From positions 49,983 through 113,982 of the forward strand of contig JAKEHY010000023.1 in NCBI GenBank assembly GCA_022614805.1: 64,000 nucleotides of DNA, written 5' to 3'. The stretch comes from Candidatus Zixiibacteriota bacterium. GTDB lineage: Bacteria; Zixibacteria; MSB-5A5; DSPP01. Each line of letters starts with the position of its first letter. Position 1 is the first letter of the stretch. The translations under genes and the position numbers were made by a program. Below are positions 5,466-57,539 of this stretch, piece after piece. The notes under the pieces were generated by a model. It saw only the letters and a list, made by a program, of their open reading frames with translations. It was not told the DNA's origin and did not search any database.

Positions 5466-5478
5466 TAACACCGAGCGC

Positions 5479-5520
5479 GCTGGCATAGCTCAGTTGGTAG
5501 AGCAGCGGTTTTGTAAACCG
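5479..5520 (+). pseudogene. tRNA-Thr(TGT) 5' half left at attL
   Basis: The 42 bp match the acceptor 5' strand, D arm and anticodon arm of tRNA-Thr(TGT), with the D loop AGTTGGTA. The match stops after ACCG, where AAACAG replaces the variable loop and T arm. The same sequence appears complete at 60144-60215 with D loop AGGGGTA. This half is therefore the original host 5' part, cut off when the element integrated. Confidence 0.92.
5496..5520 (+). other. attL core (25-bp identity with attR)
   Basis: The 25 bp from the D arm through the anticodon stem are identical to 60160-60184. Strand exchange must have occurred somewhere inside this block, most likely at the anticodon loop TTTGTAA, which is a common site for tyrosine recombinases. 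Confidence 0.85.
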
Positions 5521-5678: not shown

Positions 5679-5701
5679 GAGCCGTAGCAAAAGTCGTAGC
5701 A
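5679..5701 (+). repeat. left-end direct repeats, candidate integrase arm sites
   Basis: Two units, GCCGTAGCA at 5681-5689 and GTCGTAGCA at 5693-5701, are spaced exactly 12 bp apart. The whole 23-bp block recurs with one mismatch at 60019-60041 near the other end. An inverted pair CTATTAC (5625-5631) / GTAATAG (5665-5671) lies between this block and attL. Confidence 0.55.
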
Positions 5702-7004: not shown

Positions 7005-10000
7005 ATGTTGCCAAGAGAGCTATTCGACAAACCTGACGTAGCGAAATTTGCGGACCGATATTTTGAGTCGCAGGTTTTTGAAAGAAAACGGGGTTTCACC
7101 GCGGAAAGGACAGCCGCGACAATTTCCGCCTTTGCAAACGTTAATCCAGATGGCGGTTTAATCGTCATGGGAATTGAGGATGACGGCCGCGTATCGGGGA
7201 TTTTCCAGTTCGGCCGGGGGTGGGTGAGTCACGTTCAAAAAAGCCTGAACGGAATAATACCTGTAGCAAATATTTCCGTTAAAACCACTCCTTGCTTGAA
7301 TGCTGGAGGTGCCCCTGATGAAATTCTTTTAATCCACGCAGCCTTTTCGTCAAGCAGGGTTGTGGAAGTTTCAGACGGTCGAGCTTTCAAGAGAATTGGA
7401 GAAGAAACCATTGAGCTCTCAGAGGACGAGAAACGAGAGCTAAGGATTTCCAAAGGTGAGTTGGAGTATGAAAGAGAACCGGTCACCGAATATAATCCTG
7501 AACTTTTGGACTCGCACCTAGTGGACGATTTTCTCCACCGAATTAAAGCCAGAGATTCTTTAAGCTTGGAGGTTTCCGCAGAGGACGTCCTTTTGAACAG
7601 AAGGTTGATTACGAGAAGAGAGGGTAAACTTTGGATTACTATTGCGGGGGCACTTCTATTTTATAAAGACCCCTGCAATATTATTCCCGGTGCAAGGGTG
7701 CGCTTTCTAAGATTTCAAGGGACCGAAGAGCTATTTGGTTCGGAATCAAATATTATTAAGGACTCTTACTTTGAAGGCCCACTGGCACGGCAGATCGCTA
7801 AACTGCAGGAGTTTTTACGGACTCAGATTCGAGAATTTAGCTATCTAAACGAGGATGGCAGATTCGTCACAGAGGCAGAATACCCTGAATTCGCTTGGCT
7901 AGAAGCCCTTGTAAACGCTATTGCTCATCGGTCATATAATTTAAAATACGCTAACATTTTTGTGAAAATGTTCGATGACAAACTGGTAATAGAGAGTCCG
8001 GGTAGCTTTCCTGGAGTAGTTAGTGCATCAAATCTCATCCATTATCCGCGCAATCCGGTCATAATGGATGCGCTTCGCTATATGGGCTACGTAAAGGCCG
8101 CGAGGGAAGGAACCCGGAGGATGTACCAAGAAATGGAAAGAATGGAGCTTCCTCCTCCAGAGTTTAAAGGGGAGTCAAGTCAGGTTGTCGTGATTTTGTA
8201 CAACAACATGGCGGAACGGGAAAAGAAAAGGAGTAAGACAAAAGAACCAATATCCTACGAGGTTGGGAATCTATTCCGTATGCAAATTGACGAGTCGAAG
8301 GGCACACTAGACGAAACAGAAAGCAAAATTCGCGAAGAATTTATCAAAAAACTAATGGCTAACGGTTGGGTACTAAGCCCTTTCAGGACATCGGCTCATT
8401 CTATAAAGAAAGAGCTAAAAGCAATCGAAGTTAAAGGCACGCTTGTATGCAGTATTCGCAAAGGATTTCGATTTTCATTCAAACGCTATAAGGATACACT
8501 GTTTCTCGCGATTGACCCCAAGGTTCAATTAGTTAACCATTTAACTCTGAAACAAATATTGGAAATTGTTCCAGATATTCGCTCGGTGCTTCCACGATAT
8601 AAAATTCAGGCATTCGACGTCGATAAAGATGCGCATTTAACCATATTGGGCTTAAAGAATGATAAAATGGCCAAGGTCACCATTGACCAGAAAGTATTTG
8701 AATTCCCGACTGACGAACTCGTACCAGCCCTACCTGCCGATTTAACCCAACTCGTTCTTAAAGAGGCCTCGTCCACCGTGGATATCCGGAAAGAAATTGC
8801 GAGATATGCGAATTTGACAGTTACAGACGCACCTCGGAAGAGGTTTACAGACACCATAGAACTTGCGAATGAACTCGCCGCGAAGATATTTCCCCTCAAG
8901 ATAGATGGTACAACAATTTACATGAAGCCCGAACCCGCAAACCTAACCTTACCGGTCTTTTATGTAAACAGAGATCTCCGCGAGCCGGCTGCCACCTTTG
9001 ACCCCCAGGGAACTAAAAAGGAAAGAGAAATTCTGAGCGGCCTTGTTAAGTTTGGCTCTTATGAAAAGCCCGATGCGACCATCTCTCTAATATCACTGGT
9101 AACCCCAAGCCAATCTAAGAATATGAATAGGCTTGTTGGCCAGATTGTAAAAGGTAGCTTCAAATTTGCCGGTATGGAGCGTGCTTTCAGTACCAAGATT
9201 ACGGCCGAGAAAGTCATCACTACAAAATCTCCCGATGATTACCTTGCAGCGTGCAAAGGAGAAGTGCCGCGATTGGATGAAAACAAAATCTATATGTTCC
9301 TGGCGTATTGCCCTGAGGGTACCTATTCACGAGAAGACTACTCGGCACCTTATTATACCGTTAAGAAATTTCTTTTGGAGAATGGCATTCTTTCCCAGAT
9401 GGTGGATGAAGATACTCTAAATAATCCGAAATTCAAAGACTTCAATTTGGCCTTAGACATATTTGCAAAGAGCGGGTTTATCCCATGGGTCTTGGCGGAC
9501 GGTTTGCCGGACGTAGACCTAATTGTAGGGCTTTCATATTCGTCAATATCGGGAATAGAAAAACCTAACAGGGTAATCGGGTATGTTAACGTGTTCGACC
9601 CTTTCGGGAGGTGGCAGTTTTACAGAGGGAGTTCAAAAGCGTTTTCCTATGAAGAAAGAAAGAAATACTTTAGCAAATTAGTTGTAGAAACCGTGGAGGA
9701 AATTCAAAAAGATAGAAATATCAAGAAAGTACATATCCATGTTTCCTTTAAACTCAGCAGAGAGATTAAGGAAGAAATTTATAACCAGCTCGCAGCTATT
9801 ATACCTGGTATTTCAATTCATTTTGTTTGGATTAATCAAGGCCATACGATAAGGTTTTTTGACACGAATCCAACGGGAACTGGAAGCTTTCAGCGTGGAT
9901 TATATGTTGTCACGTCTAAAGACCAGTTTTTCATCGCCACGACCGGAGAAAACGAGTTAAACCAGCAAAGTCTTGGCACTCCAAAACTTCTTGAAGTTAA

Positions 10001-10223
10001 TGTTTCCTCACTTCCCAGGGAACGTTATCCAGACCTGAAAACTATAGCCTTTCACGTCCTAAGCCTTACTAAACTCAACTGGGCATCGACCAAGTCGTTC
10101 TGCAGAGAACCCATTACAATCAAATTTGCGTCTGATATCGCTTACTTAATGAATGCCTTCCTAATGTCATCCGAAAGCTTTGTGTTAAACAAAAAGCTTG
10201 AAAAAAAGCCGTGGTTTTTATGA
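7005..10223 (+). CDS. Schlafen/AlbA_2 - Argonaute PIWI fusion protein
   Basis: A 1,072-aa single-chain fusion. Residues ~20-140 form an AlbA_2 (Schlafen-type) domain, seen as ERKRGFTAERTAATISAFAN and GGLIVMGIEDDG. Residues ~290-400 match the HATPase_c_4 module of AlbA_2 proteins (LEALVNAIAHRSYN, then ESPGSFPG). Residues ~400-690 resemble the N/L1/L2 or APAZ-like part of prokaryotic Argonautes. The rest is MID-PIWI: PWVLADGLPDVDLIVGLSYS (~827-846), GYVNVFDPFGRWQFY, KVHIHVSFKLS (~908) and LTKLNW...PITIKFASDIAYL. The catalytic aspartates appear lost: Ser stands at the first site (GLSYS) and probably at the second (HVSF) and last (FASD). An inactive PIWI that guides a fused effector is the natural reading, by analogy with short Argonautes linked to SIR2 or TIR. 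The type I restriction operon follows 79 bp downstream. Confidence 0.85.
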   Translation: MLPRELFDKPDVAKFADRYFESQVFERKRGFTAERTAATISAFANVNPDGGLIVMGIEDDGRVSGIFQFGRGWVSHVQKSLNGIIPVANISVKTTPCLNAGGAPDEILLIHAAFSSSRVVEVSDGRAFKRIGEETIELSEDEKRELRISKGELEYEREPVTEYNPELLDSHLVDDFLHRIKARDSLSLEVSAEDVLLNRRLITRREGKLWITIAGALLFYKDPCNIIPGARVRFLRFQGTEELFGSESNIIKDSYFEGPLARQIAKLQEFLRTQIREFSYLNEDGRFVTEAEYPEFAWLEALVNAIAHRSYNLKYANIFVKMFDDKLVIESPGSFPGVVSASNLIHYPRNPVIMDALRYMGYVKAAREGTRRMYQEMERMELPPPEFKGESSQVVVILYNNMAEREKKRSKTKEPISYEVGNLFRMQIDESKGTLDETESKIREEFIKKLMANGWVLSPFRTSAHSIKKELKAIEVKGTLVCSIRKGFRFSFKRYKDTLFLAIDPKVQLVNHLTLKQILEIVPDIRSVLPRYKIQAFDVDKDAHLTILGLKNDKMAKVTIDQKVFEFPTDELVPALPADLTQLVLKEASSTVDIRKEIARYANLTVTDAPRKRFTDTIELANELAAKIFPLKIDGTTIYMKPEPANLTLPVFYVNRDLREPAATFDPQGTKKEREILSGLVKFGSYEKPDATISLISLVTPSQSKNMNRLVGQIVKGSFKFAGMERAFSTKITAEKVITTKSPDDYLAACKGEVPRLDENKIYMFLAYCPEGTYSREDYSAPYYTVKKFLLENGILSQMVDEDTLNNPKFKDFNLALDIFAKSGFIPWVLADGLPDVDLIVGLSYSSISGIEKPNRVIGYVNVFDPFGRWQFYRGSSKAFSYEERKKYFSKLVVETVEEIQKDRNIKKVHIHVSFKLSREIKEEIYNQLAAIIPGISIHFVWINQGHTIRFFDTNPTGTGSFQRGLYVVTSKDQFFIATTGENELNQQSLGTPKLLEVNVSSLPRERYPDLKTIAFHVLSLTKLNWASTKSFCREPITIKFASDIAYLMNAFLMSSESFVLNKKLEKKPWFL

Positions 10224-10302
10224 CACATTTAAAGTTCCGAGGCCACATTATAACAACGCCCTGTGGGGCAATTAACCTGGGTAGAGTAGATGGGGTGACA
10301 AA

Positions 10303-11817
10303 ATGTTAGACATCAAAACGCTTGAAAATTGGCTCTGGGAGGCGGCATGCAAAATCCGGGGAGAAATTGAAGCGCCAAAATATAAGGATTACATCCTCCC
10401 TTTGATTTTCTTGAAGCGACTCTCTGACGTTTACGATGATGAGGTTTCGAATTTAGCCGCCGAGTACGGCGACAAAAAGATTGTTCATCAGCTCATTGAA
10501 GAAGATCATAGCCTGGTCTGGTTCTTCCTCCCGGAAAAAGTGCGGTGGAACGGCATAATAAAGCAAAGCACCCGGCTCGGCGAGTACCTAACTGATGCGG
10601 TTCGGGCCATAGCCAGGGAAAATCCTAAGCTCCAGGGTGTGATTGACATCGTGGATTTCAATGCTGCTACGGCCGGGCAGCGTGTGATTAGCGACGAGAA
10701 ATTGAAACTACTCGTTGACACTCTGAATAAGCACCGGCTTGGCCTAAAGGACGTCGAACCCGACATTTTGGGTAGGGCCTACGAGTACTTGCTTAGAAAA
10801 TTTGCCGAAGGCTCAGGCCAGAGTGCCGGGGAGTTTTACACGCCGAGAGAAGTCGCAATTTTAATGAGCCAAATTGTGGACCCCAAAGAAGGGGAAGAGG
10901 TCTACGATCCTTGTCTTGGTTCTGGTGGTCTGATAATTAAGTGCTACCTGCGATTTAAGGAGAAATTTGGAGACAATGCGAAAATAAAGCCTCTAAAGTT
11001 TTACGGCCAGGAAAATGTCCATAGCACCTACGCCATGGCAAAAATGAATGCCTTCATCCATAGAATGGAAGCAGAAATTGCCTTAGGCGATACGATGAAC
11101 CGGCCGGCATTCACCGCCTCCGAGGGTTCGCTGAGAAAATTCGACATCGTAGTTGCTAATCCAATGTGGAACCAGGATTTCGTTCAAAGCACGTATGAAA
11201 ATGATGGTTTCAATAGGTTCGTTTACGGATATCCGCCTTCTTCTTCTGCCGATTGGGGTTGGATTCAGCATATGTTTGCTTCTCTAAAACATCAAGGAAG
11301 ACTGGCGGTAGTGATTGATACTGGTGCCATTTCCAGAGGCTCGAGGAATGCGGGGTCAAACAGAGAGAAAAGCATACGGAAGGCATTTCTTGAAAATGAC
11401 CTAATCGAGGCCGTTGTTTTATTGCCGGAAAATCTTTTTTATAATAATACTGCTCCAGGTGTGATAGTAATTCTCACCAAAAACAAGAAACATAAGAGTG
11501 AAGTTCTAATTATCAATGCTTCTAAGCTATTTGAAAAAGGAAGACCAAAGAATTTTCTACCTGAAAAAAGCATTAAAACCATAGTCGACCTATTTCACAA
11601 GTGGAAGGGAGAAAAAGGCTTGAGTAAGATTATTACAAAGGAAGAGGTGTCTGCAAATGACTATAATCTTAGTCCTTCAAGTTATATCTCACAAAATGGT
11701 GGAGAAGAGGTGCTGGATTTGGACGATGCCATAGTGCAAGTTAAGGACGCGGAAGAAGAAAGAAAGCTCGCAGATTATAAACTAAAAAAAGTTTTGGAAG
11801 AATTAGGGTTTGAGTGA
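10303..11817 (+). CDS. hsdM: type I restriction-modification system, methyltransferase subunit
   Basis: A 504-aa N6-adenine DNA methyltransferase that combines with HsdS and HsdR. An HsdM N-terminal helical domain (LENWLWEAACKIRGEI) is followed by AGEFYTPREVAILM, the SAM motif DPCLGSGGLII (~202-212) and the catalytic motif NPMW (~286-289), a variant of NPPY/F/W. A GGGGTGA ribosome-binding site lies just before the ATG. The stop overlaps the start of hsdS by 8 bp. The three genes form a tight operon, and translational coupling is likely. Confidence 0.95.
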   Translation: MLDIKTLENWLWEAACKIRGEIEAPKYKDYILPLIFLKRLSDVYDDEVSNLAAEYGDKKIVHQLIEEDHSLVWFFLPEKVRWNGIIKQSTRLGEYLTDAVRAIARENPKLQGVIDIVDFNAATAGQRVISDEKLKLLVDTLNKHRLGLKDVEPDILGRAYEYLLRKFAEGSGQSAGEFYTPREVAILMSQIVDPKEGEEVYDPCLGSGGLIIKCYLRFKEKFGDNAKIKPLKFYGQENVHSTYAMAKMNAFIHRMEAEIALGDTMNRPAFTASEGSLRKFDIVVANPMWNQDFVQSTYENDGFNRFVYGYPPSSSADWGWIQHMFASLKHQGRLAVVIDTGAISRGSRNAGSNREKSIRKAFLENDLIEAVVLLPENLFYNNTAPGVIVILTKNKKHKSEVLIINASKLFEKGRPKNFLPEKSIKTIVDLFHKWKGEKGLSKIITKEEVSANDYNLSPSSYISQNGGEEVLDLDDAIVQVKDAEEERKLADYKLKKVLEELGFE

Positions 11818-13081
11818 TATCGTGGTGCGAAAAGAAAATCCCCGAACAATAAAGGCTGACCAATTACAGCCTGGTGACCAACCCTTTGGCTGGCGGATTG
11901 AAACTGTAATCGGCTGCACCTTGAATAAGCGAGCATCAGTTGGAAAGGTTAAACAGCAACGCTATAAAAAGCAAGGTAAGTATCCTATTGTGGATCAAAG
12001 TCAAAAGCTAATTGCAGGTTTTTGGGACCAGGAAGAAGACGTATATAAAGGGAATCTTCCTGTGGTCGTATTCGGAGACCATACTAGGATTGTTAAGTAT
12101 ATCGACTTTCCATTCGTGTGTGGAGCTGACGGTACGAGAATTCTGATTCCTGATACCCAGATTGTATTTCCTCTTTTTCTTTACTATTCCCTCTTATTTA
12201 TAGATATACCGAGCAGGGGATATAACAGACACTACTCGTTACTAAAAGATAGGGCTTTGCGGTTACCGCCTTTGCCTGAACAAAAGAGTATTGCCGTCGT
12301 ACTGTCCGCCATTCAAGAATCAAAAGAAAGGACAAAGCAGGTCATTGGTGCTTTGCGAGAGCTAAAAACATCTCTAATGAAGCATCTGTTCGATTTTGGG
12401 CCCGTAAGGTTGGAGGAAATCGGCAAGGTAAATCGTAGAGAAACCGAGGTCGGGCTGATTCCTAAAACATGGAAAATTACAAAAATATCGGATGTTGTAG
12501 AAAACACACCCTACGTAAACGCCAGACGCCCCCTTAGTATGAAATTTAGATATGTGGATGTGTCTAGCGTTAACAATGTCTCTCTTAAAATTGAATTAAC
12601 AGCTACTTACGAAGGCCGGAAGGCTCCCAGCAGGGCGCGGAAATGGATTAAGAATGGCGACGTAATAATTGCTACAGTGAGGCCAACTCTGAAAAGAATT
12701 GCCCTGATAGGCCCAGACTTAGACGGTCAAATTTGTTCTACCGCATTCTGCGTTTTGAGGGCAAATAGCGGTGCGATGGATAATAAATACCTCTTTTATG
12801 CTATCCAGAGAGATGCCTTCATCGAAAATCTTGGAAAACTACAAAGGGGCGCAAGCTATCCTGCCGTTACTGACAAGGATGTAAAGAGTCAAAAGATACC
12901 GCTCCCGGATCCGAGCGATCAACTACAGATTTCCCTCATCCTGTCTGCGCTTGATGAAAGAATAGCTCAAGAAGAAAAAAAGGCGGAAACGTTGGCACAA
13001 TTATTTCAGTCGATGCTTCATTACCTAATGACCGGTATAGTGAGGGTCAACCATTTGAAGTTAGAGGTTGGGCATGGCTAA
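11810..13081 (+). CDS. hsdS: type I restriction-modification system, specificity subunit
   Basis: A 423-aa HsdS with two target-recognition halves, each followed by a long helical spacer: LRLPPLPEQKSIAVVLSAIQ and QKIPLPDPSDQLQISLILSALD. The duplicated PLP-x-QxxI/L pattern is typical. It selects the bipartite DNA target. A TTG start at 11810 overlaps hsdM; an alternative GTG at 11822 would shorten it by four residues. It overlaps hsdR by 8 bp. The recognition sequence cannot be predicted from the protein here. Confidence 0.92.
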   Translation: MSDIVVRKENPRTIKADQLQPGDQPFGWRIETVIGCTLNKRASVGKVKQQRYKKQGKYPIVDQSQKLIAGFWDQEEDVYKGNLPVVVFGDHTRIVKYIDFPFVCGADGTRILIPDTQIVFPLFLYYSLLFIDIPSRGYNRHYSLLKDRALRLPPLPEQKSIAVVLSAIQESKERTKQVIGALRELKTSLMKHLFDFGPVRLEEIGKVNRRETEVGLIPKTWKITKISDVVENTPYVNARRPLSMKFRYVDVSSVNNVSLKIELTATYEGRKAPSRARKWIKNGDVIIATVRPTLKRIALIGPDLDGQICSTAFCVLRANSGAMDNKYLFYAIQRDAFIENLGKLQRGASYPAVTDKDVKSQKIPLPDPSDQLQISLILSALDERIAQEEKKAETLAQLFQSMLHYLMTGIVRVNHLKLEVGHG

Positions 13082-15971
13082 GCTTGGGGTTGAAAGGACT
13101 GCAGTGCAGGCTCCACTAGTCCAATATGCATGCGAAATAGGATGGGAATACGTTGGGCAAGAAGAAGCTCTAAGGCTTAGGGGAGGGAAGACCGGCCTGC
13201 TCTTTAAAGAGGTTTTTACCGATCAAATACTCAAACTCAACTCCGACTTTATTGACCACCTAATGATTGAGGAAATCATAAAGAAACTTGAGAGATTACC
13301 TGCCAGGATTGAAGGCAATCTACAGGCCTGGGAATACCTGCGGGGACTTAAAACCGTGTTCGTGCCTGACGAAAAGAGAGAAAGAAACGTCAAATTCATT
13401 GATGAGGACATCAAGAGCAATGGTTTTCACGTGACGGACGAATTTGAGTTTACGAATGGAACTCATACGAATCGGTATGACGTTGTCTTTTTGATTAACG
13501 GCGTGCCCGTTTTCTTCGTAGAGACCAAGGCTGCTCACAAACTGGAAGGCATTCAGGAGGGCCTTGACCAAGTCAGAAGGTACCACAGAGAAACTCCGGA
13601 GGCCATGACGCTGTTTCAGATTTACACCCTGACTCACATCATACAATTTTTTTACTCAGCCACTTGGAATTACTCGCACAAAACCTTGTTTAACTGGAAA
13701 AGGGAAAGCCAGGAAAAGGACTTTGAGAATTTGGTAAAGGCTTTCTTCGACCGAAAGGCCGTGGTCGGTACGCTCCTGAAATACATCCTGTTTACAAGGC
13801 AGGATGACGAACTAAAAAAGGTAATTCTAAGGCCTCATCAGATGAGAGCAGTCGAGAAAATTGTAGAAAGGGCCGCCCATAAAATCAAACACAAGGGCCT
13901 AATTTGGCACACGCAAGGAAGTGGAAAAACGTACACAATGATTGTGGCGGCACAGGCCATCTTAGAGAATCCCTTGTTTGAAAATCCCACCGTCATTCTG
14001 CTTGTGGATAGAAACGAGTTGGAAACCCAGCTTTTTGGCAACCTCTCCTCAGTGGGGTTTGAGGATTTGGAGGATCGAATAATAAAGTCAAAAAAACATC
14101 TCCGGGAGCTTTTGGAAAACGATACGCGGGGCCTGATCGTTTCGATGATTCACAAGTTTGAGGGAATGCCTCAAAACGTCAATACAAGGAAAAACGTTTT
14201 TGTACTCGTGGACGAAGCACATAGAACAACGACGGGGGATTTGGGCAACTACTTAATGGGCGCGCTTCCAAACGCCACGTATATCGGATTCACTGGAACG
14301 CCGATTGACAAGACCGCTTACGGAAAGGGTACCTTCATAGTTTTTGGAAAGGAAGACCCGCCCAAGGGCTACTTGGACAAGTATGGTATGGCCGAGTCCA
14401 TTGAAGACGGAACAACGGTAAAACTACATTACTCCTTGGCCCCAAGCGAACTAAGGCCGGAAAAAGCCGTTTTGGAGAAGGAATTTCTAAGCTTGGCTGA
14501 AGCTGAAGGCATAAGTGACATCGAAGTATTGAATAAAGTTCTAGAAAGAGCCGTCACTTTAAGAAACATGCTCAAAAACAAAGAAAGAGTCCGAAAAGTG
14601 GCGGACTACGTTGTCAAGCATTTTAAGGAATATGTCGAGCCAATGGGCTATAAGGCGTTTCTGGTAGCGGTTGACCGCGAGGCCTGCGCCCTTTACAAAG
14701 AGGAGTTGGACAAGCGTCTGCCAAAAGAGTGTTCTGAAGTCGTCTTTAGCCCATTTCATGAGGACGAACCTCAGTTGAGAAAATATCATTTATCTGAAGA
14801 AACCGAAAAGGCAATCAGGAAAGCGTTTCGTGTACCGGATAAGCTGCCCAAGATACTAATAGTTACCGAGAAACTTCTGACGGGATTCGACGCGCCGATT
14901 CTTTACTGCATGTATCTGGACAAACCCATGCGAGACCACGTCTTACTTCAGGCAATTGCCAGAGTTAACAGGCCGTATGAGGATGGGGATGGAAGAAAAA
15001 AGACCTGCGGATTCGTGCTTGACTTCATAGGCATCTTTGACAACTTGGAAAAAGCCCTGGCTTTCGATTCCGGAGATGTTAGCGGAGTGGTAAAGGACAT
15101 CGAGATCCTTAAAGAGCGGTTCGCCTCGCTCATGAAAACTGCCAGAGTGAGATACCTTAAACTAATTGAGGGCAAGAACCGGGACAAGGCCGTTGAGGCC
15201 GTGCTGGAACACTTCAAAGATGAGGATGAACGTCATACCTATTACGGCTTTTTCAAGGAAACCGCAGACATTTACGAGGTGCTGTCTCCAGACGCCTTCT
15301 TAAGGCCTTTCATAGACGAATTTGATACCTTGGCGCGCATGTACAGAATAGTAAGGGAAGCTTATGACCCCGGGATTCCAGTTGACAGAGAATTTACCAG
15401 AAAGACCGCCAAGCTGGTCCAAGAGCACACAAAGAGCGGCGTGATAAATTCCAGTTTAGAGGTTTATGAAATAAACGAACACACCCTGAAAAAGCTGGAG
15501 GACAACAAGGCCTCTGACACCGAAAAGGTATTTAACCTGCTCCGAAGCATTGGACTTGCCATTAAAATAGGCGAGAAAACGGCCCCTTACCTCATTTCTA
15601 TCGGTGAGAAAGCCGAATTGATTTCAAAGCTCTTTATCCAGAGACAGAAAGACACGCAGGAAACCTTGGAGGAGCTGAAAAGGCTCATCGAGGAAATTAA
15701 TTCCGCGAAACGCGAACAAGAGAAGAAAAAGATGCCGGTGGACATCTTTTCTGCCTATTGGGTTTTGAAGGAGCAAGGCATACCCGAACCGGAGGTAGCT
15801 GCCAACGAAATACAAGAAGTCTTTGAAAAATATCCTTTTTGGAAAACTACAGAAGAATACGAAAGAAAAGTCAAACAACACATTCTTAAGATTCTTGGGA
15901 AATCAAAGTTGAACGTGAAATTGTCCGTAGAACTCACAACTAAAATAATCCGAATCTTAAAAGGTGTCTGA
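13074..15971 (+). CDS. hsdR: type I restriction-modification system, restriction subunit
   Basis: A ~965-aa translocase/endonuclease. The N-terminal nuclease domain shows NRYDVVFLINGVPVFFVETK (PD-ExK, Glu/Lys ~150). The SF2 motor follows with Walker A GSGKTYTM (~282), DEAHR (~380), GFTGTP, and motif VI-like LLQAIARVNRPY. It cleaves unmodified DNA after translocation. ATG 13074 is chosen over TTG 13068 because it is preceded by GAGGTTGGG. The gene is intact over all motifs, so the restriction system may be active. Confidence 0.95.
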   Translation: MAKLGVERTAVQAPLVQYACEIGWEYVGQEEALRLRGGKTGLLFKEVFTDQILKLNSDFIDHLMIEEIIKKLERLPARIEGNLQAWEYLRGLKTVFVPDEKRERNVKFIDEDIKSNGFHVTDEFEFTNGTHTNRYDVVFLINGVPVFFVETKAAHKLEGIQEGLDQVRRYHRETPEAMTLFQIYTLTHIIQFFYSATWNYSHKTLFNWKRESQEKDFENLVKAFFDRKAVVGTLLKYILFTRQDDELKKVILRPHQMRAVEKIVERAAHKIKHKGLIWHTQGSGKTYTMIVAAQAILENPLFENPTVILLVDRNELETQLFGNLSSVGFEDLEDRIIKSKKHLRELLENDTRGLIVSMIHKFEGMPQNVNTRKNVFVLVDEAHRTTTGDLGNYLMGALPNATYIGFTGTPIDKTAYGKGTFIVFGKEDPPKGYLDKYGMAESIEDGTTVKLHYSLAPSELRPEKAVLEKEFLSLAEAEGISDIEVLNKVLERAVTLRNMLKNKERVRKVADYVVKHFKEYVEPMGYKAFLVAVDREACALYKEELDKRLPKECSEVVFSPFHEDEPQLRKYHLSEETEKAIRKAFRVPDKLPKILIVTEKLLTGFDAPILYCMYLDKPMRDHVLLQAIARVNRPYEDGDGRKKTCGFVLDFIGIFDNLEKALAFDSGDVSGVVKDIEILKERFASLMKTARVRYLKLIEGKNRDKAVEAVLEHFKDEDERHTYYGFFKETADIYEVLSPDAFLRPFIDEFDTLARMYRIVREAYDPGIPVDREFTRKTAKLVQEHTKSGVINSSLEVYEINEHTLKKLEDNKASDTEKVFNLLRSIGLAIKIGEKTAPYLISIGEKAELISKLFIQRQKDTQETLEELKRLIEEINSAKREQEKKKMPVDIFSAYWVLKEQGIPEPEVAANEIQEVFEKYPFWKTTEEYERKVKQHILKILGKSKLNVKLSVELTTKIIRILKGV

Positions 15972-18842: not shown

Positions 18843-19412
18843 CTAAAACGGCAGGTCTTGTTCCTGGCCAGGGCCTGCCGGAGGGCCATCGGCCTGGCCT
18901 GACGTGGATTCTTCCGGGGTATCTGGCCCTTCCTTTTCCTTCCTTTTCTTCTTCCGGCCCAAGTTGAGCACGTATTTCTCGAAGGTCTTGGAGAGGTCAA
19001 TGGTGTATTTGGCCATGTCTTCCAAATCCATTTCTCCTTGGTTCGCTGCCGTGACTATGGAGGTGGCCGACCTTAGACAGCTAAGCCGGGCGATTTGGCG
19101 GTTCTTTCGGGTGTCGTATTCCAGAAAAGCGTCGATGTCGTCCTCGCTGGTCGGTGCGCCCTCCTTACCGTCCCCATTAGGCGGTCTCTCCTTGGCCGGT
19201 TCGATTAGTTCGATGTCCCTTAAGTTGGCGAATTTTCCGTTAATCTCGTAGGTGAATTGTATCTTGTCCCCCACGTGGTAGGTCTTAATGAACTCCTTGT
19301 CCCAGGCGCTGTAGATCTGCCCGTCGATGGTTACGGTCGCGTATCTCTTCCCTCTTCGGGAAAACTTTACCTCGATGTCCTCGATTTGCCCGATGACAAT
19401 GTCTTCCATCAA
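18843..19412 (-). CDS. OB-fold protein with SSB-like C-terminal tip
   Basis: A 189-aa protein. The N-terminal ~75 residues are beta-rich (IGQIEDIEVKFSRRGKRYAT, VGDKIQFTYEINGKFANLRD) and look like an OB fold. The middle holds a helical segment and a basic run (RKKKRKEKEG). The C-terminus is a Gly/Pro-rich linker ending in EQDLPF, very like the acidic-Pro-Phe tip by which bacterial SSB recruits partners. It may be a divergent single-strand DNA-binding protein serving the element's replication. A TGCGAATTGTGC motif lies ~55 bp upstream of its start. The OB assignment is by pattern only. Confidence 0.6.
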   Translation of the reverse strand: MMEDIVIGQIEDIEVKFSRRGKRYATVTIDGQIYSAWDKEFIKTYHVGDKIQFTYEINGKFANLRDIELIEPAKERPPNGDGKEGAPTSEDDIDAFLEYDTRKNRQIARLSCLRSATSIVTAANQGEMDLEDMAKYTIDLSKTFEKYVLNLGRKKKRKEKEGPDTPEESTSGQADGPPAGPGQEQDLPF

Positions 19413-19505: not shown

Positions 19506-19931
19506 CTATCGACCGTAGAGGTCTGATAAGGATTCAACCCTAAATATCTTCTTTAGCGCCTGGGAAGTGGAGAGGAAGCAATGCTCGTTAAGGTAGAACT
19601 CCGACAACTGAATCCGGGTAAGCCGGCCAACTCCTCTTGCCGAATTCTCTATTGGTTTGATGGTCTTAACTTCTTTCAGCACGCCCCTGTTGGCCAAGTA
19701 CTTTAACTGCCCCCTAACCTTCCAGTAGCTTTCCGGGAGGCCGGAGCGGGCGAGCTGTCGGAGGTACCAGGTCACGGAGGGGCTGTTTGACACCAAGAAG
19801 CCGTTCTTTAACAGGACGTAGTTCTTCAATCCGAACAGCGCCAGATACGGCCTTAGCCGCGACCTTCTTGGCGACAAAACCCTTTCCAGATATTTCACCT
19901 GCGCTTCAAATTCTAACCGCTTCCAATTCAT
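19506..19931 (-). CDS. unknown protein, possibly DNA-binding
   Basis: A 141-aa basic protein starting at ATG 19931 (MNWKRLEFE). The frame extends 11 codons further upstream, but the family-like hydrophobic/basic pattern begins at the chosen start. The segment YLRQLARSGLPESYWKVRGQL with KYLANRGVLKEVK resembles a winged-helix core, which would fit DNA binding. No family is recognised. It lies between the helicase gene and the SSB-like gene. Confidence 0.45.
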   Translation of the reverse strand: MNWKRLEFEAQVKYLERVLSPRRSRLRPYLALFGLKNYVLLKNGFLVSNSPSVTWYLRQLARSGLPESYWKVRGQLKYLANRGVLKEVKTIKPIENSARGVGRLTRIQLSEFYLNEHCFLSTSQALKKIFRVESLSDLYGR

Positions 19932-19960
19932 GACTACACCAAGGGGGTCCCGCAATAGAG

Positions 19961-19974
19961 GCACAATTGTACGC
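19961..19974 (-). promoter_or_regulatory. TGCGAATTGTGC-like motif, site B (reverse)
   Basis: GCACAATTGTACGC, whose reverse complement matches the 12-bp motif in its AATTGTGC half. It lies ~30 bp upstream of the ATG at 19931. Confidence 0.35.
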
Positions 19975-20193: not shown

Positions 20194-22257
20194 TCAAAAA
20201 CCGGGTAGCAGGAGCTGATTTGGGTCGTATCGTGCCTTTTTCCGGGTTCTCCTCGTGAGATAGCTGGCGGGATTGACGTAAAAGAGCTTGTTCTGGACTA
20301 TTTCTTCCTTTGGGGCCGGGACGTTGGATTTATTCAGCTTTGACCATACCTGCTCAACGCCGTCGATTTCCAGGCCTTCGAGAAGGGCCTTTGCCATCTC
20401 CGTGCTCACGTCTTCTCCGGCGGTCATTGCCAGCAGGCCCTCTTCCGAGAATTTGCCCTCTATGGCGAGGGAGGCCTCGAGCTTCGAGCCCATGAGCTGC
20501 AGGGCTTTCTCCTGCATGGTGGATTCGTAAAAAAGGTAATAGACCTTCACGTCTTTGTCCTGACCGATTCGCCACGACCTCCGCGAGGCCTGTCTCAAGG
20601 TGAAAACGCTGTATCCGGTCTGGTAAAACACCAAGGTCGGGAAATCGTAGAGGTCTAAGCCGGTCTGAACCAGCTTGGGGTTCGCCAGAACCACCTGAAC
20701 GCCGGATTTCACTTTATCGTGAATCCAATCCTCCCTTGCCTCCGGGTCCACGGAATACCTTAAAATGTCGGTATTGATGCCCTCGTCAAAGAGGAGCCGC
20801 TCAAGCCTTGAGGTTACGTCTTTTAGGCCGGTGTACTGGCAATAGGTAAAGACCTTCCTGCCTTGCGAAACCTCTCCTTTTACCAGGTCAATGAGCTTCC
20901 GCTCTTTGTTATAGACCTTGTCCTTGGGAAGGTTTATGGGGGTTGCCACGACCTTCTCGGTCTGAGGGAACAGTATCGGCCCGTTGTCAAACGGCCTGTC
21001 AGGATAGGCAAGCAGGGCGTTCAGGTAGGTGCTGAGCAGGGCCTTGCTTCCCCGGCTGAGGGCGGACTTAACGGCTGCGGACAGCGTGTCTTGAAGCGCT
21101 CCGTAAGCATCCTGAAGCTCCTCGTCCATGCTGATCCGGATGACCTCCTCTGAAATCGGGGGCAGGTCTGGGGCAATGTCTTCCAGGGACAAAAACACGG
21201 TTTTGTCAAGCAGGTGTTTTGAGAATATCATGGGGGAGATGCCCGGCTTGCGCTTCAGGATTGAATATTTTCTCTTCCCTTTCGAACAGAGGTTGTCCTC
21301 TGGACGGGACTTGGTAATCCTCTCCAGCACCCCGTATTTTGCCATCCATTTGGAAACCTCCTCGTACTCGATGTCCTCCCGTTTGATGGTGTGTGGGGAA
21401 AGTCGGTAAAGTACGTAGTAGATGTCATCGGCATATCCCCCAAGCAGGGTCCCGGTAAGCGCTACCGTTTTACCGCAGGCGCTTGACAAAGCCCCGAAAG
21501 AATTTCCCTGAGCACTTGCGCCACCCTTCAGCTCGTGCACCTCGTCGGCAACGAAGAAGTCGAAATAGCCCTTAAGGTATTTCTTTATGTAATCAGACAG
21601 CGCGTATCTCCTCATCTTGCACCCGTCCGCCTCCCACAGAGGGGCATCGCATGCGGGACACCATCTCTTGCTGCTTTTAAAGTACTCTTCTGTTGCCGGC
21701 GTTTCGTCCTTGTCAAGAATTTGACCAAAGCAGTCCGGGCAGTGGTAATTGCCGTTTTTGCTGAGAACGGCGGGTTTCCAAGCGTAACCGAGCTTGGCCC
21801 TGTCCTTGCTCACGATGACGTATTCGGGATGGTCCGGCTGATTCGTATCCAGAGAGAGGAGGTCCTTTAAATGTCGCACGATGTTTGCCTCTGCGTCGGG
21901 AATCGTCTCCAGAATCTCCCGCTGCCATTTCTTCACCAGGTGGCCCGGGCACATGACCAGAGTCCTCGCGGGTCTTCCGTCGTTGTTATAGACGTAGGGG
22001 ACGGAGGCCCCTATGAGGGACTTGCCGCAGCCCATCTCGCCTACCACGATAGCCGAATCGTAATCCCGGAGAAGATTTGAAAGCCCCATGATGGCGTCAC
22101 CTTGGGCCTGGTATGGTTTCCTCAAGAGCGTGTGCAGTTTCCCGTCCCACTTGTCTCCGGGGTTGAAAATGGGTTCAGCGGTTTGTTTAATCTTTTCGAC
22201 AAGCGTGGCTCCGTACGTCCTCAAATAGTCCGTCACGTCCTTTATTTCACCGAGCAT
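20194..22257 (-). CDS. SNF2-type helicase with zinc-binding insertion
   Basis: A 687-aa SF2 ATPase. Walker A is GEMGCGKS (~74-81), the DEAH-like box is ADEVHEL (~238) and motif III is ALTGTL. The C-terminal lobe has VFTYCQYTG, the VVLANPKLVQTGLDL motif, and RQASRRSWRIGQ, the SNF2 motif VI. Four cysteines (CPDCFG, CPACDAPLW, ~170-206) form an inserted zinc site. Such helicases are common on plasmids and integrative elements beside a DUF6094 methyltransferase, as here. It probably remodels DNA during replication or transfer of the element. Confidence 0.85.
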   Translation of the reverse strand: MLGEIKDVTDYLRTYGATLVEKIKQTAEPIFNPGDKWDGKLHTLLRKPYQAQGDAIMGLSNLLRDYDSAIVVGEMGCGKSLIGASVPYVYNNDGRPARTLVMCPGHLVKKWQREILETIPDAEANIVRHLKDLLSLDTNQPDHPEYVIVSKDRAKLGYAWKPAVLSKNGNYHCPDCFGQILDKDETPATEEYFKSSKRWCPACDAPLWEADGCKMRRYALSDYIKKYLKGYFDFFVADEVHELKGGASAQGNSFGALSSACGKTVALTGTLLGGYADDIYYVLYRLSPHTIKREDIEYEEVSKWMAKYGVLERITKSRPEDNLCSKGKRKYSILKRKPGISPMIFSKHLLDKTVFLSLEDIAPDLPPISEEVIRISMDEELQDAYGALQDTLSAAVKSALSRGSKALLSTYLNALLAYPDRPFDNGPILFPQTEKVVATPINLPKDKVYNKERKLIDLVKGEVSQGRKVFTYCQYTGLKDVTSRLERLLFDEGINTDILRYSVDPEAREDWIHDKVKSGVQVVLANPKLVQTGLDLYDFPTLVFYQTGYSVFTLRQASRRSWRIGQDKDVKVYYLFYESTMQEKALQLMGSKLEASLAIEGKFSEEGLLAMTAGEDVSTEMAKALLEGLEIDGVEQVWSKLNKSNVPAPKEEIVQNKLFYVNPASYLTRRTRKKARYDPNQLLLPGF

Positions 22258-22265
22258 TCAAACCC

Positions 22266-22820
22266 CTAAAACTCTATTTCGCCATTCCTGATCCCTTCCG
22301 AGATGAAGGCATCCAGCTCCTCCTCCCTGACGGAAAGCCTTATCACCCTCCTGGAGCCCAAAAGCTCGTCCAGGCACTTTTCCCGACGAATTTTCCCGTA
22401 TAGCCACTCAGACCACTCCGGAATCAAGGGAACCGAGTAATCCCCCCTGACGGAATTGTAGACCAGTGCCGGCGCGTCTTCATCCCTGTCAACGTAAAGC
22501 AGTTTATCTCCATTGTAAGAGGCCTTAAAGAAAACGTCTGCAAGCACGATTTGATGCAGGAGGTTGTTTCCCAACGTGGTACCGAGGATTCGGTATCGAT
22601 GGGAGAAGTCCTGCCGGACCGACGTGTTCTTGCGCCCGATTATCCGGATTTCCCTGCCGGTGACCAGAGCCGCCGTTATCGCCTTGACCTTAGCCTCATA
22701 ACCGGCAACGGACATCAGATAAAGGCGGGACTCTTGGTCATAAGCGTATCCGTCCGTGTAAGCCTCGACATCCACCCCCTTCCAGTGCTCGGCATACTTT
22801 ACCTTCTCGAGCATGAACAT
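22266..22820 (-). CDS. hypothetical protein between helicase and methyltransferase
   Basis: A ~184-aa protein with no recognised domain. It is mixed alpha/beta, with no membrane segment (YAEHWKGVDVEAYTDGYAYD, then VVRLSVREEELDAFISEG-like charged helices near the end). Its start overlaps the stop of the DUF6094 gene (TGATG), and the helicase start follows 8 bp after its stop. The three are clearly one translational unit. The conserved linkage suggests a shared role with the helicase and methyltransferase. Confidence 0.6.
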   Translation of the reverse strand: MFMLEKVKYAEHWKGVDVEAYTDGYAYDQESRLYLMSVAGYEAKVKAITAALVTGREIRIIGRKNTSVRQDFSHRYRILGTTLGNNLLHQIVLADVFFKASYNGDKLLYVDRDEDAPALVYNSVRGDYSVPLIPEWSEWLYGKIRREKCLDELLGSRRVIRLSVREEELDAFISEGIRNGEIEF

Positions 22821-23842
22821 CACATTAGGGTCAGAATGTCTCCATCTCTCTTCAGGACCTTAATGGACACCTTGTAACTCTCGACCTCCCGTTCGACCAA
22901 CGTGTTCCCCTCGTACTCCTCGAACTTGGAGCTGACCTTTTCCACTTTGCCCCTCACGATGTGCTTGTCCGGGCCGTCGGCGACCACGCCGTCAAGGCAT
23001 CCGTTGGCAAGGAGCAATCCGATGTGGCCCCTGTGCAGGGGGAGGGGAGGCCGGCCCATGTAGCCGTCCGTTGCTTCGGCGTTTTCAATCATTTTCTTCC
23101 ACAGGATTGAAGATTCCAGTTCCCTCTCCAACTCCTCCTCGTCAATCAGGGAGGAGCGAAACAACTGAACCGGACCTGAAGGGGGAAGTTTGTAAATTGG
23201 TTCGTCCAAATACGGAATTTCCGGGAGTGCACGGCCTGGAATGGCTCGCAATCTTTCATATTCATCATCGTCCAGAGCCGCTTCCTGTTTTTTGGTTCCG
23301 AACAGAACGATTTGTCCGAAGGTCTCATACTCCTCGTCCGGGAATCGGAACACGTTGAACTTCTCGATTCGATAGGAGAGTATCTTGGCAACGTCATCGT
23401 TGAGCCGTTCCTGAGGAATCAGGTAAACCATCAGGCCAGCCGGCTGGAGATATTTCACGGTGCTTTTGAGGAAAGTTTTCTCTTTCCTTTCTCCCGCATT
23501 GACGCTATCCCAATCGTAAGGTGGATTCAGGTAAAGGCAGGCAAAGGCGCCGTTGCTGATTCTGGCATCCTCGTAACTGCCTCGGATGACGTGGTCGAGA
23601 TTCTTCTTTGCTCGTTTTGCCCTGTGCTGGTCCAACTCGATGCCATAAGTTGTTGCCTTGGCGTCACCCTTCAGTTTTTTCAGTGCCAACCCTTCCCCAC
23701 AGCAGGGGTCTAAAAGATTTACGTTGTCGTCGGGAAAACCGATGTAAGACCTTATTCTTTCAACCACCGTTTTGGGCGTCGGGTAATAGCCCATCTTGAT
23801 TGCTGCTTCGGGTCTCATGCTGATTGAATCAGCCAAAAGCAT
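22820..23842 (-). CDS. DUF6094-type N6-adenine DNA methyltransferase
   Basis: A 340-aa class I methyltransferase. The N-terminal MGYYPTPKTVVERIRSYIG leads to the SAM motif LLDPCCGEGLALKKL (~45) and the catalytic NPPYDWD (~104). This arrangement matches DUF6094 proteins found on integrative elements and plasmids. It may methylate element DNA to protect it or mark replication. It heads a three-gene unit with the hypothetical protein and the SNF2 helicase. It could instead act on the element as an anti-restriction modification; no target is visible. Confidence 0.8.
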   Translation of the reverse strand: MLLADSISMRPEAAIKMGYYPTPKTVVERIRSYIGFPDDNVNLLDPCCGEGLALKKLKGDAKATTYGIELDQHRAKRAKKNLDHVIRGSYEDARISNGAFACLYLNPPYDWDSVNAGERKEKTFLKSTVKYLQPAGLMVYLIPQERLNDDVAKILSYRIEKFNVFRFPDEEYETFGQIVLFGTKKQEAALDDDEYERLRAIPGRALPEIPYLDEPIYKLPPSGPVQLFRSSLIDEEELERELESSILWKKMIENAEATDGYMGRPPLPLHRGHIGLLLANGCLDGVVADGPDKHIVRGKVEKVSSKFEEYEGNTLVEREVESYKVSIKVLKRDGDILTLM

Positions 23843-24005: not shown

Positions 24006-25232
24006 TTACGAAAGAACGGACTGCAACTGCTTTAAGCGCTTTTGGAATTCGGGATCAGAGTCCTTCAATTCCTGGAGCCGTGTCTGAATAACCTTGTCCT
24101 TTAACCCCACCGTCATCAACTCGTCAAACGCCTGCCTCTTGGAATCGAGGTCGAGAAGGGTCTTCAATTCCAGAGCCGAGGCGCATTTGCCGCAAAAAGA
24201 AAAGTCGGGAGGGTTTATCCATTCGCACTTTTCGCATTTTTTGGGTTTGAGGACGGCCTCCGGAGATTTGTCCTTCTCCCTCAAGCCGTAAAGGCCAAGA
24301 ATCGCATTATCCACGTCCCTCCCTGAAAGGTGAACGTAGATAGACGCCATGTCGGAACCCTGAGTCCATCCAAAGAATTCTTTCATCTGGGCCTCGGTTA
24401 AATACTGTGCTAACTGAGTTGCCCTACTGTGTCTAAAAAGGTGGGGATGAATCCGCTTCCGAATTCCGGCTTTCCGGCCCGCGGACTTTAAAACCTTGAG
24501 TGCTCCGCTGTAGCCGATAAACTCAAACTGTTTGTTTCTACCATCCTTGAGCCAAAGCGGAAAATCGGGGTTTTTGGAAGCCGGATGCATTTGAAGCCAG
24601 TTAACGAGCGCCGGACAGGAGGCTATTAAGCGGACTCGGCGCATACCGGTTTTGCCAGAAACGATGATGAAAGCACCATACTTGTCAAATTGAACGTGCT
24701 TTACTTTCAATGTCAGGATTTCGCCTATTCTGCAGCCGCTCTCGTAAAGGACATGTATTAGCGCCCGGTCTCGGGAGTGGCCGGCAGCTTGAATCATTCG
24801 CTTTACCTCTTCCTCGGTCAATAACTCATCGGGTAGCAGGTGACTGTTATTTTTTCGCGTCGTTTTAATCCAGCGAACCTCTTCAGGATACGTGTCGCCA
24901 CCCCTCAGCCATCTGAAAAACCTCTTCAGGGTTATGCGGTAATCCCTTTTAGTCCATTCGGAATGGTCGCTCCTTTCTAAGCGGGTTAAATACCTTATGA
25001 GGTCATCTTTTACAAGCTTGTCAAAATCTTTGCCAGTTTCTTGGGCGATGCGAAACAGAATCGTAACGTATTTAATGATTCTGACCTGGCTCAACCCTTC
25101 GCTAAAGCACGCATCGTGATACCTTAGAATCAGCATTTTATTCTCGGCCGAAAGGTTCGGGGAACTTCTAACTCGCCCTAATAACGCCTCAATTTGTTTC
25201 TCGTAATTCTTCAGCTGGATCTCGTCTTTCAC
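24006..25232 (-). CDS. tyrosine recombinase with C-terminal zinc ribbon (archaeal style)
   Basis: A 408-aa site-specific recombinase. The N-terminal SAM-like core-binding domain spans ~10-120. Catalytic residues are Arg in ESGCRIGEILTL (~170), HPHLFRHSRAT (~262-272), a Trp in the usual His position (FFGWTQGSDMAS) and Tyr in SIYVHLSG (~297). A four-cysteine ribbon, CEKCEWINPPDFSFCGKC, follows at ~335-352. This recombinase-plus-ribbon layout with SGRDVDNAIL is typical of archaeal integrases. It lies 30-55 kb from the element ends, so it is more likely a resolvase, an inverting enzyme or the integrase of a nested older element than the enzyme for the tRNA-Thr site. Confidence 0.85.
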   Translation of the reverse strand: MKDEIQLKNYEKQIEALLGRVRSSPNLSAENKMLILRYHDACFSEGLSQVRIIKYVTILFRIAQETGKDFDKLVKDDLIRYLTRLERSDHSEWTKRDYRITLKRFFRWLRGGDTYPEEVRWIKTTRKNNSHLLPDELLTEEEVKRMIQAAGHSRDRALIHVLYESGCRIGEILTLKVKHVQFDKYGAFIIVSGKTGMRRVRLIASCPALVNWLQMHPASKNPDFPLWLKDGRNKQFEFIGYSGALKVLKSAGRKAGIRKRIHPHLFRHSRATQLAQYLTEAQMKEFFGWTQGSDMASIYVHLSGRDVDNAILGLYGLREKDKSPEAVLKPKKCEKCEWINPPDFSFCGKCASALELKTLLDLDSKRQAFDELMTVGLKDKVIQTRLQELKDSDPEFQKRLKQLQSVLS

Positions 25233-25253
25233 CTACATTATTTCGCGCAAGGG

Positions 25254-25262
25254 CTTATAAAG
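25254..25262 (-). promoter_or_regulatory. archaeal-type TATA box for integrase 2
   Basis: Read on the minus strand: CTTTATAAG, centred 26 bp before the ATG at 25232. This is the expected distance for a leaderless archaeal promoter. The ATG lacks a strong ribosome-binding site. Confidence 0.4.
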
Positions 25263-25498
25263 CTTGGGGGCTTCTCACTGCAGGTGTAAAGCCCCAGGGG
25301 TGGGAGGGAAAAGAAATCCATAGCCCCCGACGGCATATTCGGCATTGGACCGCTTGCAAAAGTAGGACAGCTCAATTTTCTTCAAAAAGAAGGTGCCGTA
25401 ATATTCTGGCCCATTCCGGCAACTTGTCCAAGAGCTCCTGGTCGGATTTCATCGCAAGAGATTACAGGCAAGCGAATAAAACTATGACCGAGGAGTGG

Positions 25499-25510
25499 TG
25501 CGAATTATGC
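25499..25510 (+). promoter_or_regulatory. TGCGAATTGTGC-like motif, site D
   Basis: TGCGAATTATGC, one mismatch to the consensus. It lies in the gene-free region downstream of orc1/cdc6 and upstream of integrase 2. Confidence 0.4.
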
Positions 25511-25582
25511 TTATAGATTAAGGGGAGAACAACGCGGAGATGGCCAGGCGTCGAGACTTCGACGATTGTTAACAACAACTAA

Positions 25583-26653
25583 CTACTCAATGACGTAAAA
25601 CTTTCTAACGTTTCCTTCTTTCACCCTTGCCGGTTCAACGCGAATGAGGCCCAGGTCCCGAAGTCGGCTCACATATTTCGAGAACGTCCTGACCGCTATC
25701 GGCTCGCCGCCTTTCTCCTTAGTTTGAAGCATATAGGTTTGCCACAAGCTGCCAGATACGATTCCGGGGTTATCCTTTACCAGGTTATACAAAAGGCGAT
25801 GGTCGGGAGTGAGCGTTTCAAGGAGGTACGTCCTTTTCCAGTTTTGAGCATTCTTCCAACCGTTACGAATGTGGCTTTCGGCGATGACCTTATCCCGGTT
25901 TATTTGAGCATCGTTGGCCGCGTCCTTCAAAGTCTGGATGGCTACTCGAGCGTCGCCCCCGGACAGATTGACGATCTTCTCCAGCAATTGACGGCTCCAG
26001 GTGCCCGGAGTGAGGGAGAGGTCAGCTCTTTGGCTAATAATCTCCAGCAGGTCGGCTTTCGTGTAAGGATGAAACTCCACCTGAACCGGATTCAAGCGCG
26101 ACTTTACCCGCTCTTCGAGGGTGTAAAAGGCCAGCTTGTCGTTGGAAATGCAGAGCAGCCCGACCTTTCCCAAGGTGGAGAGCGCGTAAAGAATGGTATT
26201 TCGCTCTTTGGGTTCGGGCTTGTCAATTTCGTCCAACACGATGATGAAGGGCTCGGACTGAATGTGACGCTGGAACTTCATCAACTTGTAGGTCGTGCTG
26301 GATTGGGCCGTATGGAGAAGCCGGAGGTCCGTCACAATTTTTTCCATAATGAAATGCAAGGTATGAGATTCCCAGCAATTGACGTAGACGCCATTAACGT
26401 TCGCTTCCTGGCGCATCTGCTTGAGAACGTATCTTGACGTGGCAGTTTTTCCTGAACCGGAAGCCCCAAATAGCCAAGCGTGCATGGGTTTGTTCCGGGA
26501 CAGGGCAGGCGTCAGGCTATGGCCAAGAGCCTTAAGTTGCCCTTCTCGACCGGGTATTTTTTCTGGTAAATAGTCTTCAGCTAAGAGGTCGGGGTTAACT
26601 ATAATACTGGCAGATTCCCGGGCAACCATGCAAAATTGTTCATTTTGGGGCAT
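25583..26653 (-). CDS. Orc1/Cdc6-type replication initiator ATPase
   Basis: A 356-aa AAA+ protein of the archaeal/eukaryotic Orc1/Cdc6 family. The entry motif LAEDYLPEKIPGREGQLKAL precedes Walker A GASGSGKT (~63-70), Walker B FIIVLDEIDKPE (~137), sensor 1 LLCISNDK and a sensor 2 region with GGDARVAIQTLKDA. A winged-helix domain occupies ~275-356 (RTFSKYVSRLRDLGLIRVE). Such proteins bind origins and load helicase. Finding one inside a bacterial chromosome strongly suggests the element's replicon is of archaeal type. It stands alone on the minus strand with a 12-bp motif copy 24 bp upstream of the start. Confidence 0.9.
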   Translation of the reverse strand: MPQNEQFCMVARESASIIVNPDLLAEDYLPEKIPGREGQLKALGHSLTPALSRNKPMHAWLFGASGSGKTATSRYVLKQMRQEANVNGVYVNCWESHTLHFIMEKIVTDLRLLHTAQSSTTYKLMKFQRHIQSEPFIIVLDEIDKPEPKERNTILYALSTLGKVGLLCISNDKLAFYTLEERVKSRLNPVQVEFHPYTKADLLEIISQRADLSLTPGTWSRQLLEKIVNLSGGDARVAIQTLKDAANDAQINRDKVIAESHIRNGWKNAQNWKRTYLLETLTPDHRLLYNLVKDNPGIVSGSLWQTYMLQTKEKGGEPIAVRTFSKYVSRLRDLGLIRVEPARVKEGNVRKFYVIE

Positions 26654-32854: not shown

Positions 32855-32862
32855 GAGAGTCG

Positions 32863-57533: not shown

Positions 57534-57539
57534 TTGGGT

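Follow-up and report, generated by a model that had tools for sequence, protein, structure and literature searches.

The window (the whole 64,000-nucleotide stretch of DNA analyzed here) encodes at 25583-26653 a canonical archaeal-type Orc1/Cdc6 protein, and it comes from a bacterium of the Zixibacteria class. The gene is carried by a 54.7-kb integrative element, and it is regarded as probable that this element belongs to a lineage common to Zixibacteria, Planctomycetota and DPANN archaea in which Orc1 initiates replication when the element is excised. The features of the element are listed in Table 1.

An archaeal-type Orc1/Cdc6 on a tRNA-Thr-integrated element of a bacterium

The window Orc1 scores 185.8 bits with the family model TIGR02928 ("orc1/cdc6 family replication initiation protein"), above the cut-off of 181.3, and the Cdc6_lid region scores 44.1 bits (cut-off 27). 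Its best relatives of solved structure are archaeal Orc1 proteins, with phmmer aligning nearly the full length to S. solfataricus Cdc6-1 (2qby_A, E = 2e-31) and A. pernix Orc1 (2v1u, E = 1e-29). The Pfam winged-helix model Cdc6_C, taken alone, is sub-threshold (17.5 compared with 25.1). The C-terminal part of the predicted structure (pLDDT 70, moderate confidence) aligns to 2qby, 2v1u and 1w5t up to residue 356, and the top fold matches of the model are archaeal Orc1/Orc2 chains with Z scores of 15.6-15.8. The Walker A (GASGSGKT), Walker B (VLDEID) and sensor II (GDAR) motifs are kept in an alignment with nine relatives from both domains, in which the stretch between the lid and the winged helix is constant at 54-56 amino acids. 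The sensor I and arginine-finger region differs among the aligned sequences, so the Orc1 assignment rests on the other motifs. The full Orc1/Cdc6 layout of AAA+ core and C-terminal winged helix, as read by the first-pass annotation, is confirmed by the TIGR02928 score, the motifs and the model extending to residue 356; placement in a bacterial non-Orc1 AAA+ family is contradicted by the same score and motifs, the archaeal structural relatives and the tree described below.

The host assembly (2.56 Mb in 38 contigs, 93% complete, 0% contamination) contains a bacterial DnaA and a bacterial 16S fragment, in agreement with the bacterial chromosome proposed in that annotation. A search for MCM in the host, at this completeness, and in the element gives only AAA+ matches of 25-27 bits, and the MCM family profile also gives matches in each of the 14 control genomes, among them E. 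coli.

The element is 54.66 kb long and lies between duplicated halves of a tRNA-Thr gene, with an exact 25-bp repeat from the anticodon arm at each end that fixes the boundaries suspected near 5520 and 60184. The window has four arm-type repeats, none of them more than ~200 bp from an end of the element, and the phage-type tyrosine integrase at the right att end would be the enzyme that inserted the element into tRNA-Thr, its relatives adjoining tmRNA in the Phycisphaerae genome G194 and tRNA-Glu in the Zixibacteria genome G063. In the sibling species (G001) the left flank matches at 79-85% identity and runs into a complete tRNA-Thr without the element, this tRNA being identical (74/74) to the right copy of the window. 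All features of a tRNA-Thr-integrated element are found, namely the tyrosine integrase, the att duplication, the arm sites and the uninterrupted site in a relative. The GC content is 0.49 inside the element and 0.58 and 0.55 outside. The two tRNA-Thr 5' halves (5478-5520 and 60143-60184) differ in the D loop, with TTGGTAG on the left and GGGGTAG on the right; the right half equals the chromosomal tRNA of the sibling, and the crossover may therefore have occurred 5' of the anticodon core.

Table 1. Features of the element in window coordinates
Feature	Position	Strand	Description
attL, tRNA-Thr 5' half	5478..5520	+	25-bp core 5496-5520
Integrase arm-type repeats, left end	5680..5701	+	AGYCGTAGCA x2
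Defense cargo: AlbA_2/HATPase/pAgo fusion, then type I restriction-modification	7005..15971	+	
SSB-like protein	18843..19412	-	N-terminal OB-like barrel, disordered tail ending DLPF
152-aa protein	19506..19964	-	53% identity with the other Zixibacteria element
Cargo triplet: SNF2-like helicase, 185-aa protein, DUF6094 methyltransferase	20194..23842	-	
Tyrosine recombinase with C-terminal double zinc ribbon (DZR)	24006..25232	-	Conserved orc1 partner; Phage_integrase 74 bits, DZR weak
orc1-recombinase intergenic region	25233..25582	-	Putative equivalent of the G195 attachment site
Micro-ORF, 26 aa, MKSDQELLDKLPEWARILRHLLFEEN	25372..25452	-	In the orc1-recombinase gap
Orc1/Cdc6 replication initiator	25583..26653	-	356 aa, ATG start; AAA+ core, Cdc6 lid, C-terminal winged helix
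Hel308-like superfamily 2 helicase, 959 aa	36830..39709	+	PRK02362 326 bits (under equivalog cut-off); Helicase_dom4_arc
Core HerA-type ATPase	48053..50113	-	DUF87 50 bits; in the group of 9 loci of the HerA tree
Second HerA-like ATPase	55452..57533	+	DUF87 26 bits; adjoins primase
Archaeo-eukaryotic-type primase (AEP) with PriCT-1 domain	57534..58694	+	PriCT_1 28 bits; PHROG primase E 4e-21
Phage-type tyrosine integrase	58995..60164	+	Phage_integrase 71 bits; at att end, overlaps right tRNA
Integrase arm-type repeats, right end	60020..60053	+	AGYCGTAGCA repeats
attR, complete tRNA-Thr(TGT)	60143..60215	+	Core 60160-60184; identical to uninterrupted tRNA of sibling G001

Related elements in bacteria and archaea

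In a maximum-likelihood tree of 64 Orc1 proteins the window Orc1 falls in a clade of 11 with support of 100/100. The bacterial members are the window, G063 and the Planctomycetota genomes G194, G664 and G430 (two proteins), and the DPANN archaeal members are G195, G268, G271 (two) and G329, with DPANN and haloarchaeal plasmid or virus Orc1 as the nearest neighbors outside. A topology that groups all bacterial members together is rejected (p-AU 6.3e-5), and the clade of 11 requires a minimum of five switches between the domains. The tree is unrooted, and a main direction of transfer from archaea to bacteria is likely.

Orc1 matches well above background (genome matches of ~18-31 bits being taken as AAA+ background) are found in seven of the 132 Zixibacteria-class genomes, one of them a fragment, and in seven of the 392 Planctomycetota genomes; within the class shared by the host and G063 these two are the only ones in the same Orc1 clade. 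A second clade is all-bacterial (G500, G627, G664, G726, G471 and G168) and has one member on a single 4.25-Mb contig. Two scans of viral contigs gave no Orc1 relative and a third gave matches of 26-28% only, and the phage and plasmid collections matched only in haloviruses and in records with mostly haloarchaeal genera. More distant Orc1 genes (24-29% identical; L006, L007, L008, L010 and L016) are scattered through the tree in further genomes of the same class and represent either several separate acquisitions or mis-binned contigs. One DPANN contig (G271:C24; L081, L082) carries three Orc1 genes of different clades within ~30 kb, and a Planctomycetota contig of lower GC than its bin (G430:C222; L073, L096) carries two full Orc1 genes and one that is broken.

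The elements of the Phycisphaerae bacterium G194 and the Aenigmatarchaeon G195 belong to a single lineage and are the strongest case of one that is found in both domains. They have ~16 genes in common at 54-88% amino acid identity, including Orc1 (68%), HerA (69%), the SNF2/185-aa/DUF6094 triplet (80/69/73%) and the SSB-like protein (88%), and are inserted in a tmRNA gene in G194 and in an intron-containing tRNA gene in G195. The tmRNA gene, a bacterial gene, is detected on the G194 contig (G194:C56) at 174.8 bits together with Phycisphaerae-like genes for Tat-signal enolase-like proteins and a dockerin-like protein, whereas G195:C4 encodes aCPSF1, a ribonuclease of archaea (842 bits, cut-off 580), in addition to the intron-containing tRNA. 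With this pair and the rejection of bacterial monophyly, the earlier suggestion of a lineage of elements spanning both domains stands. For the other relatives, G271:C24 encodes an IF5B-type factor, G329:C6 an NFACT protein and G664:C2 a sigma-54 activator near the module; the domain assignment of G430 comes from GC alone. Two copies of a 30-bp stretch from the tmRNA 3' end, at 21849 and 72596 (L135, L093), mark the limits of the G194 element, and a third copy at 13295 (L136) suggests tandem insertions at ssrA in this genome. A DPANN integrase (G268:C85 7001-8012, L080) is 67% identical to the tmRNA integrase of the Phycisphaerae element.

Conserved core and other genes of the element

The conserved core consists of Orc1 and the zinc-ribbon tyrosine recombinase, usually joined by one HerA-type ATPase and an OB-fold SSB-like protein. 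Homologues of the recombinase are found in seven related elements of both domains, with a tree of too poor resolution for a test of co-inheritance. The recombinase gene follows orc1 by ~350 bp in the same direction in the window and G194, and in G664 and G063 the two genes are adjacent but convergent. In G195, where a 14-bp att repeat at 11375 and 57384 bounds the element, the recombinase is separated from the tRNA at one boundary by 18 bp, and orc1 is located ~260 bp inward of the opposite boundary. Closing this element into a circle gives the order orc1-att-recombinase with near-equal spacing and a micro-ORF as in the window and G194, the 31-aa counterpart in G194 and G195 showing weak likeness to the window micro-ORF with a PEW motif alone in common. 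By analogy, the window region between orc1 and the recombinase gene would correspond to the G195 attachment site, with attP placed between the two genes. The zinc-ribbon recombinase is probably the integrase of the module in the archaeal element, and the window and G194 elements appear to have kept the module intact, with integration carried out by the second, phage-type integrase. A dif-like inverted repeat at 25267-25295 does not reach significance by itself.

A single HerA group is common to nine loci in the HerA tree. An accompanying HerA for every Orc1 was considered and dropped, as G268, G329 and G271 carry other HerA types. Two HerA-type ATPases are found in the element, as announced in the first-pass annotation, and are the only HerA genes of the host genome. 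The conserved core includes just the first of them (48053-50113). A HerA-like fragment is also present on L095 (G063). The AEP primase predicted at 57.5 kb is borne out by the patterns DxD, SGxSGxH and IGDKxRxxRLPxT together with PriCT_1, and its catalytic motifs FDIDL, SGSGIH and IGDKNRLWRLPGT are conserved with L095; phmmer against the PDB gives no match for the primase. A search of the three closest relatives found the primase in just one of them. The SSB-like protein has homologues in four other elements (L018, L020, L072 and L110), and the fold matches of its model are weak.

The SNF2/185-aa/DUF6094 triplet of the window is 67-68/48-49/59-60% identical to those of G194 and G195 and is thus more conserved across the domains than Orc1 (42-44%); it may be a modification or defense cassette that was acquired more recently. 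The defense cargo begins with a 1072-aa protein in which Schlafen AlbA_2, a RecG-type HATPase and a complete pAgo-like region are fused; a full type I restriction-modification operon comes immediately after it. A patch of high GC (0.65) at 32297-34577 contains DUF6580, periplasmic binding protein and diphthamide-synthase-like genes and represents host-like cargo in the element. Among the main ORFs of the element, with small ORFs covered in part, only HerA/TrwB-like ATPase matches were obtained and none to a relaxase or VirB4-type protein.

Proposed role in replication

Orc1 most likely initiates replication of the excised element, as suggested by the intact ATPase motifs, the canonical family, the linkage with the recombinase, SSB-like protein and primase, and the precedent of archaeal elements. 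Orc1 and AEP/PriCT genes occur in thaumarchaeal integrated elements, where they are presumed to recruit the replisome (PMC6563490). In the integrated state the element would reside in tRNA-Thr through its phage-type integrase, and on the excised circle Orc1 in the ATP state would bind the element origin and open the DNA, after which the AEP primase, the OB-fold SSB-like protein and helicases would start DNA synthesis. Candidates for the helicase are the host DnaB and the Hel308-like protein or HerA ATPase of the element. HerA probably also pumps DNA in segregation or transfer. The zinc-ribbon recombinase, the probable integrase of G195, may act beside orc1 here as a resolvase or spare integrase.

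Searches for repeats around orc1 and for an ORB-like consensus gave nothing above chance, nor did over-represented k-mers in 17 intergenic regions of relatives. A palindrome at 55372, TTCCACTGGAAA, was considered as an origin and is within chance. The first-pass annotation had initiation following the archaeal scheme, of which the archaeal initiator stands and the scheme as a whole does not; with no ORB-like origin and no MCM found in host or element, at most the initiator is archaeal, and without MCM a helicase step unlike that of archaea is required. More tentatively, Orc1/Cdc6 could work as the initiator in bacterial cells that lack MCM by handing over to a non-MCM helicase (host DnaB, element HerA or the Hel308-like protein), with the same element replicating in both domains.

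Neighborhoods of Orc/CDC6 and HerA/FtsK genes have been described as anti-invader systems (PMC10853773; PMC12839542), and the Orc1-HerA pair could accordingly be read as a "HerA/FtsK capture" defense module, in which an Orc/CDC6-clade ATPase localizes a restriction apparatus on invading DNA and the pair is cargo, not the replicator. The window resembles these systems in having HerA and an Orc/CDC6-clade ATPase in one mobile neighborhood, HerA is found near Orc1 also in the second bacterial clade, and the element carries further defense genes. This reading is nevertheless unlikely, since the capture systems have an inactive REase inserted between the AAA+ and wHTH parts of the Orc/CDC6 protein (PMC10853773), whereas the window Orc1 has no such insert in a stretch of constant length among its nine relatives, is a canonical family member above the TIGR02928 cut-off and not a divergent member of the clade, and groups with DPANN and haloarchaeal plasmid and virus Orc1. 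Near three of the archaeal Orc1s in the clade, moreover, no HerA of the window type was observed, so the Orc1-HerA pairing is not strict. Marginally less likely again is a role as DNA-binding regulator or maintenance factor, and replication driven by a different protein of the element, for example the AEP primase. Sulfolobus Orc1-2, a DNA-damage regulator, provides the precedent of a non-initiator Orc1 (PMC9738581), and the fruitless origin searches and the presence of the primase agree with such a role, but the ATPase motifs (Walker A, Walker B, sensor II) persist across nine diverse relatives, and the primase was found in just one of the three relatives searched whereas orc1 defines the set.

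An assembly chimera or mis-binned archaeal DNA, to which the GC shifts at the element borders and the predominance of metagenome assemblies among the genomes compared could point, is scarcely credible. The identical 25-bp repeats of attL and attR, the confinement of the arm sites to both ends and the left flank running into the uninterrupted tRNA-Thr of the sibling make a chimeric contig very unlikely, and the independent occurrences elsewhere, with a Phycisphaerae contig that has a member of the window element's lineage between tmRNA repeats, an integrase adjoining tRNA-Glu in G063 and a related Orc1 on one single 4.25-Mb Planctomycetota contig, answer the concern about assembly raised earlier.

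Several of the closest known systems are archaeal. The thaumarchaeal ICE/CIE (NitGar-E3, NitVie-E3 and NitAQ6f-E1; PMC6563490) are likewise integrated, some with Cdc6/Orc1 and others with an AEP primpol and PriCT-1, but have archaeal hosts only, whereas the window host is a bacterium with DnaA and without MCM. Haloarchaeal plasmids and viruses (Halalkalicoccus plasmid 1, virus BJ1) are mobile replicons with their own Orc1/Cdc6 and the nearest annotated records, but are only 25-31% identical and fall outside the cross-domain clade. The secondary Orc1 proteins of DPANN (G268, G271, G329 and G195) belong to the same 100/100 clade, are 36-42% identical and in some cases lie near the same zinc-ribbon recombinase, differing from the window in their archaeal hosts. 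Orc/CDC6-clade ATPases are known from bacterial defense systems, so their presence in bacteria is nothing new; the literature searched, with partial coverage, contains no report of a canonical Orc1/Cdc6 in bacterial mobile elements, and the novelty appears to lie in a domain-crossing integrative element that carries a canonical Orc1.

Reviews assign DnaA to bacteria and Orc1/Cdc6 to archaea and eukaryotes as initiators (PMC11880632). Elements that have taken Orc1 over the line between bacteria and archaea more than once indicate that replication modules still cross domains via mobile DNA, and an older idea, that mobile elements exchanged the replication machineries of cells, becomes testable. 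The finding raises the question of what Orc1 loads in a cell without MCM; if it does act there as an initiator that hands over to a non-MCM helicase, the same element would be able to replicate in both bacteria and archaea.
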